A DNA stretch of 64,000 bases, taken from NCBI RefSeq assembly GCF_000270245.1, contig NC_015635.1, positions 4,588,001 to 4,652,000 of the forward strand, in the 5' to 3' direction. Shown piece after piece: positions 11,658 to 21,395 of this stretch; position 1 is the stretch's first letter; every line of letters starts with the position of its first letter. A program made the position numbers and the translations under genes. A model generated the notes under the pieces. That model searched no databases. It was given only the letters and a program-made list of their open reading frames with translations, and had not been told where the DNA came from. This DNA is from Microlunatus phosphovorus NM-1 (GTDB lineage Bacteria; Actinomycetota; Actinomycetes; Propionibacteriales; Propionibacteriaceae).

Positions 11658-12959
11658 GTGGCGCGTGAGACCTCGGTCTTCATCTCCCGGCTGAAGAACC
11701 TGCCCGTCCTGGACGTGGCGAGCGACCAGCTCGGGCGGGTTCGCGACGTCATCGTGCAGCGCCGCGCCGACGGCCGACCGCCTCGGGTCAAGGGTCTGCT
11801 GGTCGAGTTGTTCGCCCGGCATCGCATCTTCATCTCGATGGCCCGGGTCCGCAGCATCGACCCGCTGCAAGTCGTCATCTCCGGCACGCTCAACACTCGC
11901 CGCTTCGAACGCCGGGAGTCGGAGATCCTGGTGATCGACGACCTCTTCGACCGACGAGCCGAGCGGATCGACCAGCAGGCACCGGCGGTGGTTTTCGATG
12001 TCGCCATGCAGGCGGTCCGGATGCACGAGTGGGAGCTCAGCGAGGTCGCCATCCGCGACGCCAAACCCCGCAGCTTCGGTCGCCGGGGTCACGTGACCAT
12101 CCTCGACTGGGATGACGTACGGATCAGCGGGATGGACGACACCGGCCAAGGCACCGAGCATCTGCTGGCCGTCTTCGAGGACATGAAGCCGGCCGACATC
12201 GCCCGGGAGCTGCACGACATGTCCTCCGAGCGCCGCGCCGAGGTGGCTGCCGCGCTGGACGACGAGACTCTCGCCCATGCGCTCGAGGAGTTGCCGGAGG
12301 AGGAGCAGGTGCAGCTCATCGAGGGGCTCGACCCGGAACGGGCCGCCGATGTGCTCGAGGAGATGGATCCCGACGACGCCGCCGACCTGATCGCCGAGCT
12401 CGCACCCGAGGTCGCGGAGCGACTGCTGAACCGGATGGAGCCGGAGGAGGCCAAGGACGTACGCCGGCTGCTCGTCTACGAGGACTTCACCGCCGGCGGC
12501 ATGATGACCCCGGAGCCGGTGATCCTGCCGCCGGGCGCCACCGTGGCCGAGGCGCTGGCCAAGGTGCGCGACGCCGAACTCACCCCCGCCCTCGCGTGCA
12601 TGGTCTACGTGTGCCGCTCCCCATTGGAGACGCCGACCGGACGCTATATCGGCGGTGTCCACTTCCAGCGGCTGCTGCGTGAACCGCCGTCCACCCTCGT
12701 GTCGACACTCGTCGACTCCGAGTTGGAGCCGCTCACTCCGCAGACCCGGCTGGGTGTCGTATCGCGTTACTTCGCGACCTACAACCTGGTGAACGCGCCG
12801 GTGGTCGATGCCGCCAAACGGCTGCATGGTGCGGTCACCGTCGACGATGTCCTCGACCACGTGCTGCCGCCTGACTGGCGCGGCACCCAGATGGATGCGC
12901 TGTCTGCGCAGGCCGCGCTCGGCCGGCGCGGTCGGGGTCGGGCGGTGAGTGGTGGCTAA
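11658..12959 (+). CDS. Cytoplasmic PRC-barrel / MgtE-N / CBS protein
   Basis: 433 aa, GTG start behind a leaderless promoter. Residues about 5-85 and again about 95-165 look like PRC-barrel type beta domains (SRLKNLPVLDVASDQLGRVRDVIV). About 170-285 is the MgtE N-terminal superhelical domain (LLAVFEDMKPADIARELHDM, EELPEEEQVQLIEGLDPERAADVLEEMDPDDAADLIAEL). Two CBS motifs follow (GGMMTPEPVILPPGATVAEAL and the segment ending VVDAAKRLHGAVTVDDVLDHVLP). The MgtE transmembrane channel domain is absent, so it is not a transporter by itself; it may be a Mg2+- or nucleotide-sensing partner. It overlaps the DUF1003 gene by 11 nt. Confidence 0.88.
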   Translation: MARETSVFISRLKNLPVLDVASDQLGRVRDVIVQRRADGRPPRVKGLLVELFARHRIFISMARVRSIDPLQVVISGTLNTRRFERRESEILVIDDLFDRRAERIDQQAPAVVFDVAMQAVRMHEWELSEVAIRDAKPRSFGRRGHVTILDWDDVRISGMDDTGQGTEHLLAVFEDMKPADIARELHDMSSERRAEVAAALDDETLAHALEELPEEEQVQLIEGLDPERAADVLEEMDPDDAADLIAELAPEVAERLLNRMEPEEAKDVRRLLVYEDFTAGGMMTPEPVILPPGATVAEALAKVRDAELTPALACMVYVCRSPLETPTGRYIGGVHFQRLLREPPSTLVSTLVDSELEPLTPQTRLGVVSRYFATYNLVNAPVVDAAKRLHGAVTVDDVLDHVLPPDWRGTQMDALSAQAALGRRGRGRAVSGG

Positions 12960-13503
12960 GGCGGAGCGGGACGCAGAGCGGCTCAACACCCCCGGTCGCC
13001 GGAAGCGCTCGCTGCTGCCCCGCTTCCGTTGGGATCGAGACACCTTCGGCCAGTTCGCCGAAGGGTTTGCCAGGTTCATGGGCACCGCGCGTTTCCTGGC
13101 CTGGATGACGATCATCATCATCTGTTGGGTGCTGTGGAACATCCCCTTCGGACCACCGCGCCCGCAATTCGACGCGTACCCGTTCATCTTCTTGACCTTG
13201 GTCTTGTCGTTGCAGGCCTCGTACGCGGCCCCGCTGATCCTGCTCGCCCAGAACCGGCAGGAGGCCCGGGACCGCGTAGCGCTGGAACGGGACCGGGAGC
13301 AGGCCACGCAGAGCCGGGCCGACATGGACTATCTCGCCCGGGAGATCGCCGGCCTGCGGATGTCGGTCGGCGAGCTGGCCACTCGTGACTACCTGCGCTC
13401 GGAGCTGCGCAGCGAGCTGCGCTCGATCCTGGCCGAGCTGGACGACGAGGAGCGAGAGCGGGAGCGGAGCCAGCTGGGTGAGCATCGTCGAGGCGAGCGC
13501 TGA
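12949..13503 (+). CDS. DUF1003 membrane protein
   Basis: 184 aa, GTG start inside the end of the MgtE-N/CBS gene. It has a basic N-terminus, a conserved region before the first helix (RFMGTARFLAWMTIIIICWVLWN), a short loop with FDAYPFIFLTLVLSLQASYAAPLILLAQNRQ, which is the DUF1003 signature, and a long charged C-terminal helix likely to form a coiled coil (about 110-184, with repeated RSELRSELRS). In actinobacteria this gene often sits beside the MgtE-N/CBS protein, suggesting joint action in cation or envelope homeostasis. Function not established. Confidence 0.85.
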   Translation: MVAKAERDAERLNTPGRRKRSLLPRFRWDRDTFGQFAEGFARFMGTARFLAWMTIIIICWVLWNIPFGPPRPQFDAYPFIFLTLVLSLQASYAAPLILLAQNRQEARDRVALERDREQATQSRADMDYLAREIAGLRMSVGELATRDYLRSELRSELRSILAELDDEERERERSQLGEHRRGER

Positions 13504-13508
13504 CTTCG

Positions 13509-14414
13509 TTGGGTGCTGACGAATCACCGCCCGATCTCGAGCTGGCCCGTCGACTGGTCGCCGAGCAGTTTCCCCGGTGGGCCGACCTGCCGGTCCGCGA
13601 GGTGGAGCTCAGCGGCTGGGACAACCGGACGTACCGGCTCGGCGACGAGCTGAGTGTCAGGCTTCCTCGGTCACGGTATTACCGAGAGCAGGTCGCCAAG
13701 GAGCAGCTTTGGCTGCCGATCCTGGCGCCGCAACTGCCCCTCCCGATCCCACAGCCGGTTGCTCGCGGGCGGCCCGGACTCGGCTATCCGCACGAGTGGT
13801 CGGTGTACCGCTGGATCCAAGGCTCTCCGGTCCGGCTCGACCTGATCGAGGACCCGGTCTCCTTCGCCCAGGCGGTCGCCGAGTTCCTGGTGGCGCTGCG
13901 TGCCTGTGAGGCGACCGACGGACCACTCCCTGGCCAGCACAACTTCTGGCGAGGAGCACCGTTCGAGGTGTACGCCGACGAGGCCCATCGCTCGTTGGGG
14001 GAACTCCGTGATCTTGGCGAGCTGTCGCCGGCCGAGACTCGAAGTGCCAACGCGATCCTGGCGGAGGCAGTCGCCAGCACCTGGCCGGGTCCGCCAGTCT
14101 GGTTCCACGGCGACGTCGCGTACGGAAACCTGCTGGTCCGGGACGGTCGGCTGGCAGCGGTGATCGACTTCGGCTGCAGCGGCGCCGGCGATCCGGCCTG
14201 CGACCTGGTGCTGGCCTGGACCCTGCTGCCGCGTACGGCTCGGCCGGTATACGCCCAGACACTCGGGCTCGATCATGACACGTGGGCCCGCGCTCGCGGC
14301 TGGGCGCTGTGGAAGGCGCTGATCACCGTGGTCGGCCAGCGCGAGAACAATTCGATCGCCGCCGAGGAAGCCCGACGGGTGATCCGCGAGGTGCTGACCG
14401 ATCCGGTGCACTGA
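13509..14414 (+). CDS. APH-fold phosphotransferase
   Basis: 301 aa. The only suitable start is TTG 13509, 5 nt after the DUF1003 stop. The kinase-like signature is intact: WFHGDVAYGNLLV contains the catalytic Asp and the Asn of the HGDxxxxN motif, and AVIDFGCSGAGDPACDLVLAW contains the metal-binding Asp. The N-terminal lobe has an ELSGWDNRTYRLGDELSVRLPRS glycine-loop-like stretch. This subgroup resembles the chromosomal 'aminoglycoside phosphotransferase family' and is usually not a resistance determinant; the true substrate is unknown. It ends 122 nt before mrp. Confidence 0.85.
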   Translation: MGADESPPDLELARRLVAEQFPRWADLPVREVELSGWDNRTYRLGDELSVRLPRSRYYREQVAKEQLWLPILAPQLPLPIPQPVARGRPGLGYPHEWSVYRWIQGSPVRLDLIEDPVSFAQAVAEFLVALRACEATDGPLPGQHNFWRGAPFEVYADEAHRSLGELRDLGELSPAETRSANAILAEAVASTWPGPPVWFHGDVAYGNLLVRDGRLAAVIDFGCSGAGDPACDLVLAWTLLPRTARPVYAQTLGLDHDTWARARGWALWKALITVVGQRENNSIAAEEARRVIREVLTDPVH

Positions 14415-14524
14415 GCGGCCGTTGCCTCGTGGTCGGGATACGTCATCGGGATACGTCAGCAGGAGCGGCGGCCCGCTCGACCACCTTGCTGGAGAGACGG
14501 CACCGGATCGCGGGCGTACCCAAC

Positions 14525-14530
14525 TAACCT
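14525..14530 (+). promoter_or_regulatory. -10 box (TAACCT) of the leaderless mrp promoter
   Basis: TAACCT is followed by exactly 6 nt and the GTG at 14537, with no Shine-Dalgarno between. Confidence 0.6.
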
Positions 14531-14536
14531 GGTCGA

Positions 14537-15703
14537 GTGCCCGTCTCGACCGCCGCTCCACTGCTCGACCGCGTCCGTACCGCCCTGGGCGGGGTGATCG
14601 ATCCCGAGATCCGGCGACCGATCACCGAACTGGGCATGGTCGCGGCCTGTGAGGAGAACGCGCCCGGCGCCGTCCGGGTCGAGGTGCTGCTGACGGTTTC
14701 CGGTTGCCCGATGCGCGACACGCTCCGACGCGATGTGACGGCCGCGGTCTCCGCGGTCGAGGGCGTCGAGTCGGTCCAGGTCGATCTCGGCGTGATGAAC
14801 GATCAGCAACGAGCCCAGCTCCGGGACCACCTGAAGGGCGGCCAGGCGGAACGGGAGATCGTGTTCGCCCGGCCCGACTCGCTGACCACGGTGATCGCGG
14901 TCGCGTCCGGCAAGGGTGGAGTCGGCAAGTCCTCGGTGACGGTCAACCTGGCGATGGCGTTGACCCGGCTGGGCCGTACGGTCGGAGTGCTGGACGCCGA
15001 TATCTACGGTCACTCGATCCCGGCGATGCTCGGGGTCGCCGACGCCCGTCCGACCGCGGTCGAGGACATGATCATGCCGGTGCCCACCAACGGGCTGAAG
15101 GCCATCTCGATCGGGATGCTCAAGCCCAGCCGGGACCAGGTGGTCGCCTGGCGCGGGCCGATCCTGGACCGGGCGCTGACTCAGATGCTGGCCGACGTCT
15201 ATTGGGGCGACCTGGACTTCCTGCTGCTGGATCTGCCTCCTGGTACCGGCGATGTGGCGATCTCCCTCGGCCAGAAACTGCCCAATGCCGAGGTGATCGT
15301 GGTGACCACTCCGCAGCAGGCGGCGGCCGAGGTGGCCGAGCGCGCCGGCACGATGGCTTCGATGATGAACCAGCGAGTGATCGGTGTCATCGAGAACATG
15401 GCCTATCTGGAGACCGTCTGCCCGCACTGCCACGAGAGCCATCGGGTCGAGGTGTTCGGTTCCGGCGGCGGCCAGGAGGTGGCGGCGAAGCTGACCACTC
15501 GGCTGGGCTACCAGGTGCCGGTGCTCGGTCAGGTGCCCCTGGATCCGACGCTGCGCGTCGCGGGCGACGAAGGCGTACCGGTCACTGCCGGCGACCCGGA
15601 TTCGCCCTCCGGCCTCGCCCTCACCGCGATCGCCGAGCAGTTGGCCAAGCGCGGTCGCGGACTCGCCGGCCGCCAACTGGGCGTCTCCCCCACCGGCCGC
15701 TGA
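14537..15703 (+). CDS. mrp: Mrp/NBP35-family ATP-binding iron-sulfur carrier
   Basis: 388 aa. Residues about 5-95 form the MIP18/DUF59 domain (DRVRTALGGVIDPEIRRPITELGMV). The deviant Walker A GKGGVGKSSV lies near residue 125, with the MRP signature DADIYGHSIPAMLG and the DLPPGTGDVAIS strand after it. A CPHC pair near 295 would bridge the dimer and hold the transient 4Fe-4S cluster. It should load Fe-S clusters on apoproteins in the cytosol. The gene converges on tatB; in mycobacteria mrp also lies close to the sigE-htrA-tatB block. Strong family match. Confidence 0.95.
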   Translation: MPVSTAAPLLDRVRTALGGVIDPEIRRPITELGMVAACEENAPGAVRVEVLLTVSGCPMRDTLRRDVTAAVSAVEGVESVQVDLGVMNDQQRAQLRDHLKGGQAEREIVFARPDSLTTVIAVASGKGGVGKSSVTVNLAMALTRLGRTVGVLDADIYGHSIPAMLGVADARPTAVEDMIMPVPTNGLKAISIGMLKPSRDQVVAWRGPILDRALTQMLADVYWGDLDFLLLDLPPGTGDVAISLGQKLPNAEVIVVTTPQQAAAEVAERAGTMASMMNQRVIGVIENMAYLETVCPHCHESHRVEVFGSGGGQEVAAKLTTRLGYQVPVLGQVPLDPTLRVAGDEGVPVTAGDPDSPSGLALTAIAEQLAKRGRGLAGRQLGVSPTGR

Positions 15704-16061: not shown

Positions 16062-16541
16062 TTAGGTCGCGTCCGGGTCGAACGGGGTCAGCACTCGAGG
16101 GCTGGCGACGCCGTTGGTCGCCGCCACGCCAACCGCTGCCGCACCAACGGCTGCCGCGGCACCCACCGTCCCAGCGGCGGAGCCGTTCGACCGCGACGCG
16201 CTCTTGGCGTCGTCGACTGCCGCCGTCACATCGGAGGCCGCAGTACGCCCCGCGGCCGTGCCCTCGGCGAGTTCCTTCTTGACATCGTCGACCAGGGGTT
16301 CGACGTCATCGAGCAGGTGCTTCTGGATGAAGGTCTTGGGGTTCAGATCCCGTACGTCGACATCGGAGAACTCCGGGCCGAGCTCGTCCTTCAACTGCTG
16401 CTGCGCGCTGCCGGCCATGGTCCGTACGTAGTTGATCACCCGAGCCGCCTTCCGGGCGAACTCGGGGAGCTTCTCCGGGCCGAACAGGATCACGGCGAGG
16501 ACCGCCAGGACCAGGAGCTCCGGAGCCCCTACGTCGAACAT
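16062..16541 (-). CDS. tatB: Twin-arginine translocase subunit TatB
   Basis: 159 aa. The N-terminus has the single membrane helix and amphipathic turn of TatA/B proteins (GAPELLVLAVLAVILFGPEKLPEFARKAARVINYVRTMA); Glu near the start of the helix and FGPEKLP favour TatB. The C-terminal half is Ala-rich and probably disordered. It should form the TatBC receptor for folded, RR-signal proteins. tatC is not in the window. The gene follows htrA by 9 nt, and a TAGCGT box overlapping the htrA stop codon could give it its own leaderless promoter. The sigE/anti-sigma/htrA/tatB order is the same as in mycobacteria. Confidence 0.93.
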   Translation of the reverse strand: MFDVGAPELLVLAVLAVILFGPEKLPEFARKAARVINYVRTMAGSAQQQLKDELGPEFSDVDVRDLNPKTFIQKHLLDDVEPLVDDVKKELAEGTAAGRTAASDVTAAVDDAKSASRSNGSAAGTVGAAAAVGAAAVGVAATNGVASPRVLTPFDPDAT

Positions 16542-16547
16542 CTGCTC

Positions 16548-16553
16548 ACGCTA
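16548..16553 (-). promoter_or_regulatory. Possible internal -10 box (TAGCGT) for tatB
   Basis: TAGCGT on the minus strand uses the htrA TAG stop as its first three bases and is followed by 6 nt and the tatB ATG. The 6 nt (GAGCAG) could also serve as a weak ribosome-binding site, so this is a weaker case than others. Confidence 0.35.
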
Positions 16554-18041
16554 ACCTTCACGACTCCCCAAAGTCACTTCAGCGGTCTGCTGCTGCGCGC
16601 CGCGTTGATAGGTCAGAGTGACCTTATCGCCGGGACGATGGATCCGGATGGCAACGATCAGCTCCTCGGCGGTGTCGACCGGCTGGTCATCGATCTTGGT
16701 GATCACATCGTCCACCCGAAGGCCCGCCTGGTCGGCCGGTCCATCGGCATCCACCTGGGACAACCGGACGCCGTCGGCGGCGTCACCGCCGACATTGACG
16801 CCGATCACGGGATAGGTCGCCTTGCCGTCGGAGATCAGCAGCTTGCCGATCACCATCGCCTGGTTGATCGGGATCGCGAAGCCCAGACCGATGTTGCCGC
16901 CTGCGTCGGCGCTCTGCCCCATCGTCAAGATCGCGGAGTTCACGCCGATCACCCGCGCACCCGCGTCGACCAGCGGCCCACCGGAGTTGCCCGGATTGAT
17001 GGCTGCGTCAGTCTGGATGCCGTTGATGTAGGCGCTCGGCGAGTCGGCGCCGGCGTTGGAGTTGACCACCACCGGGCGGTTCTTCGCACTCACGATCCCC
17101 TGGGTGACCGTGCTGGCCAGCGCCAGCGGCGAGCCGATCGCCACCACGGACTCGCCGACCTGGACATTGTCGGAGTCACCGATCGCCATCGGGGTCAGCT
17201 CGTGCTCCTCCTCCAGTTTGATCACCGCGAGATCGTACGACGGGCTGCGCCCCACGAGCTTGGCCTCGACTCGGGCCCCGTCGGAGAACACCACCGTGAT
17301 CCGACCGCCGTCGGCGGCGTCGGCGATCACGTGGTTGTTGGTCATGATGTGGCCGTCGGAGTCCAGCACGAATCCCGAGCCGGTCCCACCGGATCGGCCC
17401 GAGCCGACGCGGATCATCACCGTGCTGGGCAGCGCCGTCGCGGCGACCTGCACGGTGTCGATCTGGTTGGGTGCGGCGGGCACTGGTGTCTGCGGTGCAC
17501 CGCCGGTCCTCGACGGCCGCGGCAACGGTGCGCTGCTGGGTGTGGTCGACGTCGGTGCGGTGGATCCGGCGAGCTTCGCGCCGCCGTAGCCGGCCGCCGT
17601 GCCGACCAGTGCCGCCAACAGGACCGAGAGCAGCAGGATGAGTCCGGTACGCGGTCGACGCGGCGATCCGCCGCCGGCAACCGGCACCTGTCTTGGGCCG
17701 GGCGGCGGCGCCGGCGAATGCACCACGGTCGGCGGCCCTGAAACGGGCGGCCCCGAAATGGGCGGCCCCGCGGTCGGTGGCGGCCCACTCCGCGGGCTTG
17801 CCGAACCGTGGCTCGAGACGTACGGCGAACCGGTCGGCGGCGGATAGCTCGACGCGTAGGTCGGCAGCACCTGGGTGGGATCCTCGACCGGTGGCGGCTG
17901 CTGACCGAACGGACCGTAGTAGGCGTTTGCCGGATCGCCGTGTTGAGTCGAGTCCGACCGGTCCCGGAAGAACCAGTCCGCGCTGGACTCATCCGCGGCC
18001 CGGTCTCCGTCCGGTCCCGCCGAGCGGTCCTGGTCAGTCAC
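16551..18041 (-). CDS. htrA: HtrA/DegP-type membrane-anchored serine protease with PDZ domain
   Basis: 496 aa. A Pro-rich cytoplasmic N-terminus (about 1-130, with GPPxS 5-residue repeats) is followed by one membrane helix (about 132-152) and an extracellular S1C protease. The catalytic triad is visible as His near 239 (TNNHVIAD), Asp near 271 (YDLAVIKL) and Ser near 350 (GNSGGPLV). A C-terminal PDZ domain (about 395-490) contains LRVDDVITKIDDQPVDTAEEL. It should degrade or process misfolded envelope proteins. It lies 13 nt downstream of the anti-sigma/RseB gene, so it is probably in the sigE operon and could serve as the site-1-like protease for that anti-sigma factor, by analogy with DegS; this is inference. 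Confidence 0.95.
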   Translation of the reverse strand: MTDQDRSAGPDGDRAADESSADWFFRDRSDSTQHGDPANAYYGPFGQQPPPVEDPTQVLPTYASSYPPPTGSPYVSSHGSASPRSGPPPTAGPPISGPPVSGPPTVVHSPAPPPGPRQVPVAGGGSPRRPRTGLILLLSVLLAALVGTAAGYGGAKLAGSTAPTSTTPSSAPLPRPSRTGGAPQTPVPAAPNQIDTVQVAATALPSTVMIRVGSGRSGGTGSGFVLDSDGHIMTNNHVIADAADGGRITVVFSDGARVEAKLVGRSPSYDLAVIKLEEEHELTPMAIGDSDNVQVGESVVAIGSPLALASTVTQGIVSAKNRPVVVNSNAGADSPSAYINGIQTDAAINPGNSGGPLVDAGARVIGVNSAILTMGQSADAGGNIGLGFAIPINQAMVIGKLLISDGKATYPVIGVNVGGDAADGVRLSQVDADGPADQAGLRVDDVITKIDDQPVDTAEELIVAIRIHRPGDKVTLTYQRGAQQQTAEVTLGSREG

Positions 18042-18054
18042 TTCTCGTCACCGC

Positions 18055-19614
18055 TCATCGCCCTAGGATGCGGGACCAGCCCGCACGAACGCGCTCAATC
18101 GTAGTCTGGCCGCGGAAAGCCTTGTGTGGCAGCGCGGCGACGGCTGCGGTCAGCGTGACGGGTGACCCATCGGTCACCACGGTCAGCACGACATCGCCCG
18201 AGGACCAGGTCGCGGTGCTCGGCATCCCGCTCGTGACCCAGGCACCAAGGGTCTTGTTCTGGGTACTGCCGGCCGGTGCGTCCTCCAGCCGGCCGCGCTG
18301 TTCGACGACACTGACCGTGGTGAGTCCGTCGCTGTAGATCAGATGCACGAGGTCCGGGTGGGCGGGACCATCGGTACGGATCCGCTGCAACTGCAGACCG
18401 GCCAGCCGATCGAAGCAGATCCAACCGTTCTTGCGCAGCTCGGCTGCCCGCGAGAGCGTGAGCGTGGTCGTCGTCCGTGCCGGCGAGGCAGGCAACGCGA
18501 CCGTATCCTCGCTCACCTGCCCCATCTGCAGGTCGGTCAACCGGCTCGAGGTCACCAGGTTGCCGTAACCATCGAAGGTCTCCTGTCCCAGGATGAGAAA
18601 GGTCTGCTCGCCGATCCACCAGCGGGCTACCACGCCGTCCGCCTCGTCGTCGGCCGCCGGCTCGGCTCCGCCGGCTGTCTGATCGCCTGGCTGATCAGGA
18701 GCCGGCACCGACGGGTCGACCGCCTCGACCACGACAGCGGGACGACCGCCATACAGCTGTCCCTTCCAGCCACGCAGCGTATAGCGGCGCGCCAGCAACT
18801 GGACCAAGTCGGCATCGGCCAGTCGACTCGAGTGCTCCGACTCGATATAGGTCAGCGTGACCGGCGCCGCCGACGAGTCCGACGGCACGGTCCGCAGCTC
18901 CAAACCGGTATCGCCGCGGCTGATCACCTGCACCGTGTTGCTCACCTGCTGTCCGTCGCGGGTCAGTGTGACGACCTGGTTCGCGGTGTAACTCGACTCC
19001 CAGCCGGCCTGGCCGGCGCGCACCAAGACCTTGATCGCTTTCGACTTCGACAGCGGCTTGCCCGACCGCGAGATCGGCTCCGGGCGATCCATATTGGTGC
19101 CGGTGACCGGTGCCAGACCCTGCAAAGCCCCACTGACCCGCCCGTCCAAGGGAAAGCCAGAGACGGCAGTGGTGAACTCGATGGTGGCCTGCCTCGTCGG
19201 ATCGACGTTCGCCAGACTCACGGCCGGCGCGCTGACGTAACCGATGCCGAGGATGGCCAGCACGGCCAGGCTGGACCCCAGCACAGCCGCGAGCACGCGC
19301 GCACGTACCAGCTGCTGGCGAGTAGGCAGCCGACCAGGTGTCTGGGTGCGGCGAAACGGACGCGTCCACAGTGGCTCGGTGGCCTCGTCGCCGGCGATCG
19401 AGACGAGGCGATCCGACAGATCGACCGGCGCCGAGTCCAAGGTGCCGGCTGCGGTCAGCAGCGATCGGATGTGCCGCATCTCCGCGACGTCTCGTCGGCA
19501 GTCGGCACAATCGACCAGATGGGCCAGAAGCCGCTCGCGGTCACTGTCCCCCAGCGCACCATCGACGTACGCCGACCGGAGTTCGTCCAGGTCAGCGCAG
19601 GACTCCGGCCTCAC
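18055..19614 (-). CDS. Fused RseA-like zinc anti-sigma factor and RseB-like sensor
   Basis: 519 aa. The GTG at 19614 overlaps the sigE stop (GTGA). The N-terminus is a zinc-binding anti-sigma domain: Cys6, His32, Cys36 and Cys39 give the CxnHx3Cx2C pattern (AHLVDCADC). One membrane helix follows at about 100-125 ([25 protein letters not shown]). The extracellular 390 residues resemble MucB/RseB: a LolA-like front part, then a C-terminal domain with [42 protein letters not shown] and [23 protein letters not shown]. In E. coli RseA and RseB are separate; mycobacterial RseA lacks this part. It likely holds SigE inactive and senses envelope lipid or protein stress in the same chain. Confidence 0.8.
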
Positions 19615-20333
19615 GAACCCCTCGCGTACCCCGGTATCGACTGACCGGCCAGCGCCGGCATCCCGCCCTGTTCGACCTCGACACCCAGATAGCGCTCGCG
19701 CTCGCCGCTCGGGCGCCGGTGTGCCAGCGCCGTACGCAACTGCGCCCGACCACGGTGGATGCGGCTGCGGACGGTGCCGATCTTGGTGTCCAAGACCGCA
19801 GCGATCTCCTCGTACGTCAGTCCCTCGATGTCACAGAGCACCACGGCGGCGCGGAACTCCGGCGACAGGGCCGCCAGGGCGGCGGCGACGTCATGATCGA
19901 GACCGGCGTCGGCGAGCACCTCCGACGGCGTGGGCCAGTTGCTCGGCAGCCGCTCGTCGGCGCCGTCGGCGAGTCCGTCGAAGCGGATCTTCTGCTTGCG
20001 GCGGGCTGAGTCCAAGAACAGGTTGGTGGTGATGCGGTGCAGCCAGCCTTCGAACGTACCCGGCTGGAAGGTGTGCAGTGAGCGGAAGACCCGGACGAAA
20101 ACATCCTGGGTGAGATCCTCGGCATCGTGGGGGTTGCCGGTCAGCCGGTACGCCAACCGATAGACCCGCGCACTGTGGTCCCGGACGATCTGCTCCCAGC
20201 TCGGCGGCGTCCACTGCTGCGGGGCTGGGGGCGCCCAGGTCCGACCGGGAGCAGCCGTCCCTGCTGCACTCGACACCGCGGGAGTCGACCCCGCGGTCGT
20301 CGGGACGGTTTCAGGCGCCGGCCAGTGAGTCAC
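19611..20333 (-). CDS. sigE: ECF RNA polymerase sigma factor SigE
   Basis: 240 aa. GTG 20333 is chosen because a strong GGGAGG lies 4-6 nt upstream; longer versions begin in non-conserved sequence. Region 2 ([32 protein letters not shown] ... [17 protein letters not shown]) and region 4 ([50 protein letters not shown]) are complete, separated by about 50 residues. The N-terminal 45 residues are Pro/Ala-rich. It is coupled to the anti-sigma gene. A role in envelope stress is inferred from the htrA/tatB context and from mycobacterial SigE. Positions 20334-20495 hold the promoter region; I could not identify a certain ECF -35/-10. Confidence 0.93.
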
Positions 20334-20495
20334 GACGCCTCCCTTCCCTTGCTTGTCGATCACCAACGGACTCTTATTCTCCCGGATGATTCTGGGCAGA
20401 GACTGAGACGAAGCTGTCAGCAGCCTGTGCGCCGGGCCGCTTGTGACCAAAGTCTCGGTGAGCGATGTCTCCCCGAAATCAACGTCGCAGGTCGC

Positions 20496-21395
20496 TCAGA
20501 CGTTCCCGATCGGCAGACCTGCTGCCTCCAGCGCAGCGACCAGGCCGGCGACCTCGGCCTCGGTCGCCACCGGCATCGGCGAACGCAGCAGGCCGTTGCC
20601 GTATCCCTGTAGCCGCAGACCGGCCTTGACCAGGATGCAGCCTTGGGTGGCGAAGACGCCAGTGAAGATCGGCAGCAGCTTCCGGTGCCAGGCCAGGGCG
20701 CCGGCCACGTCACCGCCCAGATAGGCCTCGATCAACGACCGCATCCCGACTGCGCTGAAGTGAGTCGAGGTGCCGACCACCCCGACCGCGCCGATCGAGA
20801 GCAGTGGCAGCGTCATGCCATCATCGCCGGAGTAGTAGGCCAGATCGGTGGCGGCCAGCACCTTCGCCGACGCCTGGAGATCGCCCTTGGCATCCTTCAC
20901 CGCGACGATCCGCGGGTGCTCGGCCAGCCGGAGCATGGTGTCGGTGGCGATCGGAACGCCCGCGCGATGCGGGATGTCGTACAGCATGATCGGCAGCTCG
21001 GATGCGTCGGCCACGGCCGTGAAGTGCATCAGCACACCGCTTTGCGGCGGCCGCGAGTAGTAAGGGGTGACGACCAGCAGTCCGGCCGCGCCGTCCTGGG
21101 CCGCCGCCGCGGCCAGCGTTCGAGTGTGCTCGGTGCTGAACGTGCCGACCCCGGCCAGGACGGTGCTGCGGTCCCCGACTGCGGCCACGACAACCCGGAG
21201 CAACTCGCTCTTCTCCGCGTCGGTGGTGGTCGGCGACTCCCCGGTCGTCCCGCTGATCACCAATCCGTCGTTCCCCAGCTCGTCGACCAGGTACGTCGCC
21301 AGCGCCGCAGCACCGTCGTAGTCGACCTTCCCCTCGTCGGTGAACGGGGTCACCATCGCCGTGAGCAGGCGTCCGAACGGAGGCGCGGGGGTCAT
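20496..21395 (-). CDS. dapA: 4-hydroxy-tetrahydrodipicolinate synthase
   Basis: 299 aa. It condenses pyruvate and aspartate semialdehyde in the first committed lysine/diaminopimelate step. The aldolase barrel motifs are clear: GTTGESPTT, VTPYYSRPPQ, the catalytic Tyr in MLYDIPHRAG (about 137) and the Schiff-base Lys in IVAVKDAKGD (about 165). Length is normal. Starts at ATG 21395 behind a leaderless promoter, divergent from the O-methyltransferase with 179 bp between start codons. With dapC, dapD and dapE it makes four diaminopimelate genes within 26 kb. Confidence 0.96.
   Translation of the reverse strand: MTPAPPFGRLLTAMVTPFTDEGKVDYDGAAALATYLVDELGNDGLVISGTTGESPTTTDAEKSELLRVVVAAVGDRSTVLAGVGTFSTEHTRTLAAAAAQDGAAGLLVVTPYYSRPPQSGVLMHFTAVADASELPIMLYDIPHRAGVPIATDTMLRLAEHPRIVAVKDAKGDLQASAKVLAATDLAYYSGDDGMTLPLLSIGAVGVVGTSTHFSAVGMRSLIEAYLGGDVAGALAWHRKLLPIFTGVFATQGCILVKAGLRLQGYGNGLLRSPMPVATEAEVAGLVAALEAAGLPIGNV

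Follow-up and report, generated by a model that had tools for sequence, protein, structure and literature searches.

RseB is known as a sensor of lipopolysaccharide (LPS) in Gram-negative bacteria, and in mycobacteria the gene order SigE-RseA-HtrA-TatB is found. Other one-chain membrane anti-sigma factors, RsiV and RsiW among them, also carry an outer part on the same chain, but this part is unrelated. In E. coli, as far as the accessible parts of two sources describe it, DegS, RseP and ClpXP act on RseA in turn and RseB blocks DegS (PMC8103513, PMC4598750). Fusions of anti-sigma groups to further conserved domains are on record (PMC7406223), and in the accessible part of that article RseB and MucB occur in the reference list only. 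Judged at the level of titles and abstracts, at which a prior mention is possible, the literature searched describes neither an RseA-RseB fusion nor an RseB in Actinomycetota.

A fused gene in the sigE locus of Microlunatus phosphovorus

In the window, by which the whole 64,000-nucleotide stretch of Microlunatus phosphovorus NM-1 DNA is meant, the genes sigE, a fused anti-sigma/sensor gene, htrA and tatB follow each other in this order, all on the minus strand:

20481..20506, minus strand: possible SigE-type promoter GGAAC-N17-CGTT upstream of sigE (pattern search)
19611..20333, minus strand: sigE, ECF sigma factor (NCBIfam SigE NF007229)
18055..19614, minus strand: fused anti-sigma/RseB-like protein, 519 aa, GTG start
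19495..19599, minus strand: zf-HC2 anti-sigma domain, residues 6-40, Cx25Hx3Cx2C (Pfam PF13490, motif positions)
19240..19296, minus strand: single membrane helix, residues 107-125 (hydropathy 2.37)
19090..19239, minus strand: extracytoplasmic linker, residues 126-175 (low model confidence; no [FYWLM]xxxH)
18523..19059, minus strand: predicted RseB/LolA-like N-terminal domain, about residues 186-364 (AlphaFold2 model residues 59-237; Foldseek)
18067..18456, minus strand: predicted RseB C-terminal-type domain, about residues 387-516 (AlphaFold2 model residues 260-389; PF17188; profiles)
16551..18041, minus strand: htrA, trypsin-like protease with PDZ domain and predicted membrane helix (Pfam Trypsin_2, PDZ_2)
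16062..16541, minus strand: tatB (TatA_B_E; sec-independent translocase families)

The fused gene, for which the original prediction had named no strand, is a minus-strand frame of 519 codons whose GTG overlaps the sigE stop by 4 bases and which ends 13 bases short of htrA; the single-contig genome of 5,683,123 bases holds one match to the protein. Its residues 6-40 match Pfam zf-HC2 (PF13490) with 31.6 bits against a cut-off of 22.2, the zinc-motif residues being C6, H32, C36 and C39 (C6-x25-H32-x3-C36-x2-C39), and the three best hydropathy windows all lie at 106-109, which leaves one clear helix. The zinc anti-sigma domain and the one membrane helix that had been read from the sequence are thus both borne out, and with Hx3Cx2C in the N-terminal domain and an adjoining ECF sigma gene the protein has the traits of a class I zinc anti-sigma factor.

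The sigE product reaches 309.1 bits against NCBIfam SigE NF007229 (cut-off 265) and belongs to a group which we take to be ECF14. Translation probably starts at the GTG at 20333 rather than at the TTG at 20450 of the mechanical ORF, as judged from the arrangement GGGAGG-N4-GTG and from the resemblance of VTHWPAPE to MTQWPAPD of locus L058. The pattern GGAAC-N17-CGTT, which we assume to be a SigE-type promoter consensus, occurs twice in the window, once upstream of sigE, against 1.64 matches expected by chance; with a count so close to chance, the match carries no significance by itself. The htrA product has its helix at 133-151 and the motifs TNNHV, SYDLAV and GNSGGP. Beyond tatB, at 11658-15703, lie what we take to be an MgtE-type/CBS protein, a DUF1003-like protein, a phosphotransferase and Mrp, presumably in an order similar to that in mycobacteria.

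The outer part resembles RseB and MucB

Scanned alone, the window protein matches MucB_RseB_C (PF17188) over residues 416-452 with 13.9 bits and an E value of 0.061, below the cut-off of 30.1, and the Pfam scan gave no match of its sensor to RseB_N (PF03888) at E <= 1. When 14 fused sensors were scanned singly at the same threshold, PF03888 was found in nine and PF17188 in five of them, the window's sensor matching PF17188 only. A profile of these 14 sensors of the window's family retrieved P. aeruginosa MucB with an E value of 9.7e-7, designed armadillo proteins coming next in the list from 9.1e-5 through columns 33-149. With a profile of the window's sensor and 11 separate-gene sensors of named Actinomycetota, MucB was matched across both domains (E 2.6e-10) and E. 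coli RseB at 1.3e-3; hhalign against the E. coli RseB sequence alone was weak, with probabilities of 30.1% and 5.8%.

The AlphaFold2 model, built on these 12 sequences, is of middling confidence (mean pLDDT 68.4, pTM 0.66), with pLDDT below 50 over model residues 1-48, which are the linker. In a Foldseek search of the PDB its 15 best matches were RseB or MucB chains (E 2.1e-11 to 4.4e-9), although superposition was loose (TM by target 0.46-0.58, rmsd 7.1-14.6 A). The model and the fold search point, at that middling confidence, to a LolA-like domain followed by a small beta domain, and the profiles extend the RseB/MucB-family similarity over both domains, the window sequence alone staying below the Pfam cut-off. 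First after RseB and MucB in the fold search came M. tuberculosis LprG (rank 16, E 2.4e-5), as would be expected if a lipid-transfer domain of the LprG/LppX kind had by chance become fused to an anti-sigma factor; we regard this as very improbable, as the RseB/MucB matches span 325-348 columns against 211-228 for LprG, a second, RseB_C-like domain is present and the split homologues described below pass the Pfam MucB_RseB model.

Cumulatively, the predicted resemblance of the outer part to RseB is weak from the window sequence alone and firm once relatives are added. The extracellular part had originally been called RseB/MucB-like, with an AlphaFold comparison proposed as a check, and both the MucB profiles and the fold search uphold this; profile, fold and synteny evidence likewise agree on the claim of a one-chain anti-sigma/sensor protein beside sigE and a gene for a PDZ protease. 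RseB proper is a separate secreted protein; the sensor described here shares its chain with the anti-sigma domain and is for this reason filed as a fused variant.

Fused, split and sensor-less loci in Actinomycetota

SigE starting sets were drawn from 158 of 196 genomes of the same order (E <= 1e-40) and, at the level of the phylum, from 88 of 396 genomes (E <= 1e-30). Among 99 sigE regions chosen for spread and classed by profile and motif, 34 are fused, 34 split and 31 without detected sensor, proportions that are not frequencies; these and the other genomic counts come from related, author-chosen sequences and are not independent. The sensor-less class includes two cut contigs (L130, L133) and two loci that are perhaps not SigE orthologues (L153, L155). 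Eighty named sigE loci, mostly from Streptomyces and some cut short, add 11 with a split sensor and none with a fused one. Fused and two-gene forms are both spread through Actinomycetota, a pattern wider than the original prediction claimed. The survey for fusions that it had called for found them, and its one-chain form stands, but its contrast between two proteins in E. coli and a short mycobacterial RseA was incomplete, as RseA-like and RseB-like genes are adjacent in those 34 split regions. The short, sensor-less RseA ascribed to mycobacteria fits the four loci of family f7 (L114-L117), which have no sensor and, with a hydropathy after the zinc motif of at best 0.22-0.76, no membrane helix; that this family is mycobacterial is our guess.

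In the window and in the 22 other loci fetched from its family, a single uninterrupted frame encodes both the anti-sigma motif and the sensor, and the sensors of 13 relatives are 28-38% identical to that of the window; one of the 22 (L079) has the C-terminal sensor part only. A two-gene arrangement in the window, or a frameshift concealing one, is rejected on these frames. Family f2 of the same order has the two-gene form, in which a zinc-motif ORF of about 205 codons ends in an in-frame TGA and, after one codon, a GTG opens a second frame, about 352 codons long, with a signal-like hydrophobic stretch at its start. By script, TGA-N3-GTG was found in 15 of the 16 f2 loci (L015-L030), and L021, the remaining one, shows the same arrangement of ORFs. 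Readthrough of the in-frame stop was considered, and nothing was found in its favour. The existence of this form within the same order would allow the window gene to be an artefact in which faulty sequencing or assembly has merged two genes, an explanation that is barely credible given that 22 further loci of the window's family carry an unbroken frame as well.

All seven split sensors scanned pass Pfam MucB_RseB (cut-off 22.3), namely two of two from f2 (36.7 and 34.8 bits) and five of five named ones (29.6, 34.0, 26.6, 39.7 and 23.8 bits). Of 34 split sensors examined, 32 are hydrophobic close to where the homologous region begins, as judged by hydropathy only, and two match a rough lipobox pattern. 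A search of nine chosen genomes for unlinked sensor genes gave a sole match, in G008, which already has a linked gene.

How often the fusion arose

The SigE tree comprises 110 rows, with 15 of the 80 named loci used and with L130 and L133 (cut contigs), L153 and L155 (doubtful orthologues) and L156 (a second copy within one genome) left out. On it the fused/split label requires at least four changes. For the constraint test, L122, L123, L132, L134, L135, L136, L138, L139 and L140 were dropped for poor trimming or long branches; on the resulting 101 rows one origin for all 35 fused rows is rejected (p-AU 7.6e-42) and the grouping of the 33 fusions of the window's class is not rejected (p 0.54). 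L147 (f36) is placed among split loci with a support of 98, and L125 (f34) likewise with a weaker support of 86. The simplest reading would be that a split ancestor gave rise to fusions at least three times, although the tree gives no direction; transfer between lineages or, in f2, fission could also account for the pattern.

A juxtamembrane segment that accompanies separate sensors

In 104 of the 110 tree rows a membrane helix follows the zinc motif, and these make up the tail set. Within 35 residues past the helix, [FYWLM]-x3-H is found in 36 of 41 split, one of 28 sensor-less and two of 35 fused proteins, against about 4.9, 0.6 and 1.0 expected from shuffling; the pattern was picked after viewing the tails and the MucA residues, and kinship inflates the counts. 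The tails were also scored with a profile of the split tails, from which each split clade was left out when its own members were scored. Scores above the 99% shuffle level were reached by 33 of 41 split, nine of 35 fused and one of 28 sensor-less tails, the nine fused ones consisting of six f3 g22, two f3 g28 and one f34. The segment thus goes with a separate sensor and is rare without a sensor or after fusion. One sensor-less locus, L106 (f4 g23), has an RseA tail with Y-x3-H, and a search found no sensor match elsewhere in its genome; this suggests a recent loss.

The spacing equals that of Y166 and H170 in MucA, which was compared by published residue numbers, not by its sequence. In the available part of PMC7400510, MucA mutants of W158, R162 and H170, with H170A among them, lose MucB binding in a pull-down, and Y166A is a comparison mutant in later tests. 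As E. coli RseA reads Y-x6-H rather than aromatic-x3-His, the parallel is confined to MucA. Searching the PDB with just this motif of the tail gave no match.

The aromatic-x3-His motif is absent from the window protein and from its family, the linkers of which have a conserved pattern of their own, DPxxxARxEF...PL, and show no significant similarity to the split-RseA tail profile. Homology of the window linker to the split RseA tail, suggested by an ungapped f2 match found by eye, is not claimed, as the profile test gave 0.3 bits only.

The scarcity of the binding His in fused proteins would fit a relaxed affinity in cis, and it could also fit a sensor that acts in trans, on the adjacent chain of a dimer rather than on the stalk to which it is attached. 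Because the linker is disordered, such an exchange would be feasible, and the split form must, so we reason, act between two molecules; nevertheless, we deem action in trans quite improbable and favour shielding in cis.

Long and short fusions

Of the 23 loci in the window's family, 22 match the sensor profile over almost its whole length. Other fusions cover less of it: those of f3 g28 start at profile position 79-81 of 364 and that of f34 covers positions 131-342, each with most or part of the N-terminal domain, and f3 g22, f5, f8 and one f36 genome are fused to about the C-terminal part only. Fusions to the C-terminal part in which no lipid-binding domain was detected are L084-L089, L110, L118, L147 and L079; separate RseB-like genes that seemingly encode the C-terminal domain only are found as well (L123, L132). 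In P. aeruginosa, according to the part of PMC7400510 available, the MucA helix binds mainly to the C-terminal domain of MucB, and the lipid cavity lies in the N-terminal domain. By these domain roles, the short fusions would have the stalk-binding part and lack the lipid-binding part, and lipid sensing can therefore not be general.

Several fusions with just the C-terminal part are also what would be seen if the RseB-like part were a permanent stabiliser of the stalk, SigE being freed by cytoplasmic Clp degradation of the anti-sigma factor. Further points in favour of this are the 31 of 99 chosen regions that have sigma and anti-sigma genes without detected sensor, the 18 of 35 fused loci without htrA in the fetched region and the degradation of mycobacterial RseA by ClpC1P2, as stated in the accessible part of PMC11173970. 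On the other hand, the two-part form has been kept in 22 of 23 family loci despite the drift to 28-38% identity, and a stabiliser is in our judgement unlikely.

A proposed single-chain switch

We consider it rather probable that the window protein is instead a single-chain RseA/RseB switch whose release depends on HtrA and a Rip1-like protease. The cytoplasmic zinc domain would hold SigE, and at rest the sensor would cover the juxtamembrane segment of the chain it is part of. Upon envelope stress, a lipophilic ligand may enter the LolA-like domain and open the sensor. The stalk thus exposed would be cleaved by HtrA or, at loci without htrA, by a different site-1 protease, and a subsequent cut in the membrane by the Rip1-like protease would free SigE. 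Shielding, opening and the two cuts are proposed by analogy with E. coli RseA/RseB, and the original label of a simplified envelope-stress switch is likewise an inference. A candidate for the Rip1-like protease is a 432-codon ORF with HEVGH at about 1.66 Mb of the same genome, which scores 54.6 bits against TIGR00054 (RseP), far under the cut-off of 147.55.

As for HtrA, the fetched sequence contains an htrA-like frame in 17 of the 35 fused loci, the window being counted among these, in 23 of 34 split loci and in 26 of 31 without a detected sensor; in the window's family the figure is 15 of 23. No such frame was found in the fetched regions of the fused loci of f1 g3, g16 and g18, of all eight of f3, and of those of f5 and f36 (L064-L069, L078, L079, L084-L089, L102, L103, L110 and L147). 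With htrA nearby in no more than 17 of these 35 fused loci, HtrA cannot count as a constant partner of the fusion. The HtrA cut is proposed from the gene order of the window, and these data do not allow it to be generalised, which lowers our confidence in the switch.

As split sensors have a hydrophobic start and a lipobox in only two of 34, a free split sensor might be lost from a monoderm cell by diffusion, and the fusion would prevent this. A broader scenario, put forward tentatively and with less confidence than the switch itself, is that an old two-gene RseA-RseB system of Actinomycetota, with a ligand other than LPS, was several times made into a one-chain lipid-gated switch, that fusion made a strong contact between RseA and RseB unnecessary, so that the binding His decayed in the main fused lineages, and that some lineages gave up the lipid-binding domain and kept only the stalk-binding one.

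The recurrence of an RseB-like part as partner of SigE anti-sigma factors in a phylum that we take to lack LPS raises the question of what is sensed. Natural fusions are evidence that RseA and RseB work together, and the fusion offers a ready 1:1 construct for structure and cleavage assays. The survey also flags the aromatic-x3-His segment, which seems to be important as long as the sensor is not part of the same chain.

Comparison with known systems

The window protein resembles RseA/RseB of E. coli and MucA/MucB of P. aeruginosa in its class I anti-sigma domain, its one helix, its RseB/MucB-type part and the PDZ serine protease, but differs in being one chain instead of two and in lacking the binding His motif; its zinc motif is absent from the E. 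coli RseA sequence. Its host, which we take to be a monoderm without LPS, differs in this from E. coli and P. aeruginosa. Like the mycobacterial SigE-RseA-HtrA-TatB system, the locus has a sigma factor that passes NCBIfam SigE and the same gene order; unlike it, it has a sensor and a membrane helix, both of which are missing from the four f7 loci taken as mycobacterial. The split pairs of Actinomadura, Streptosporangium, Spongiactinospora and Actinorugispora also adjoin SigE homologues, with sensors 26-30% identical to that of the window, but they consist of two genes, their RseA has the juxtamembrane aromatic-x3-His, which the split actinobacterial RseA shares with MucA at the spacing of Y166 and H170, and their sensor has a signal-like start, as judged by hydropathy only.
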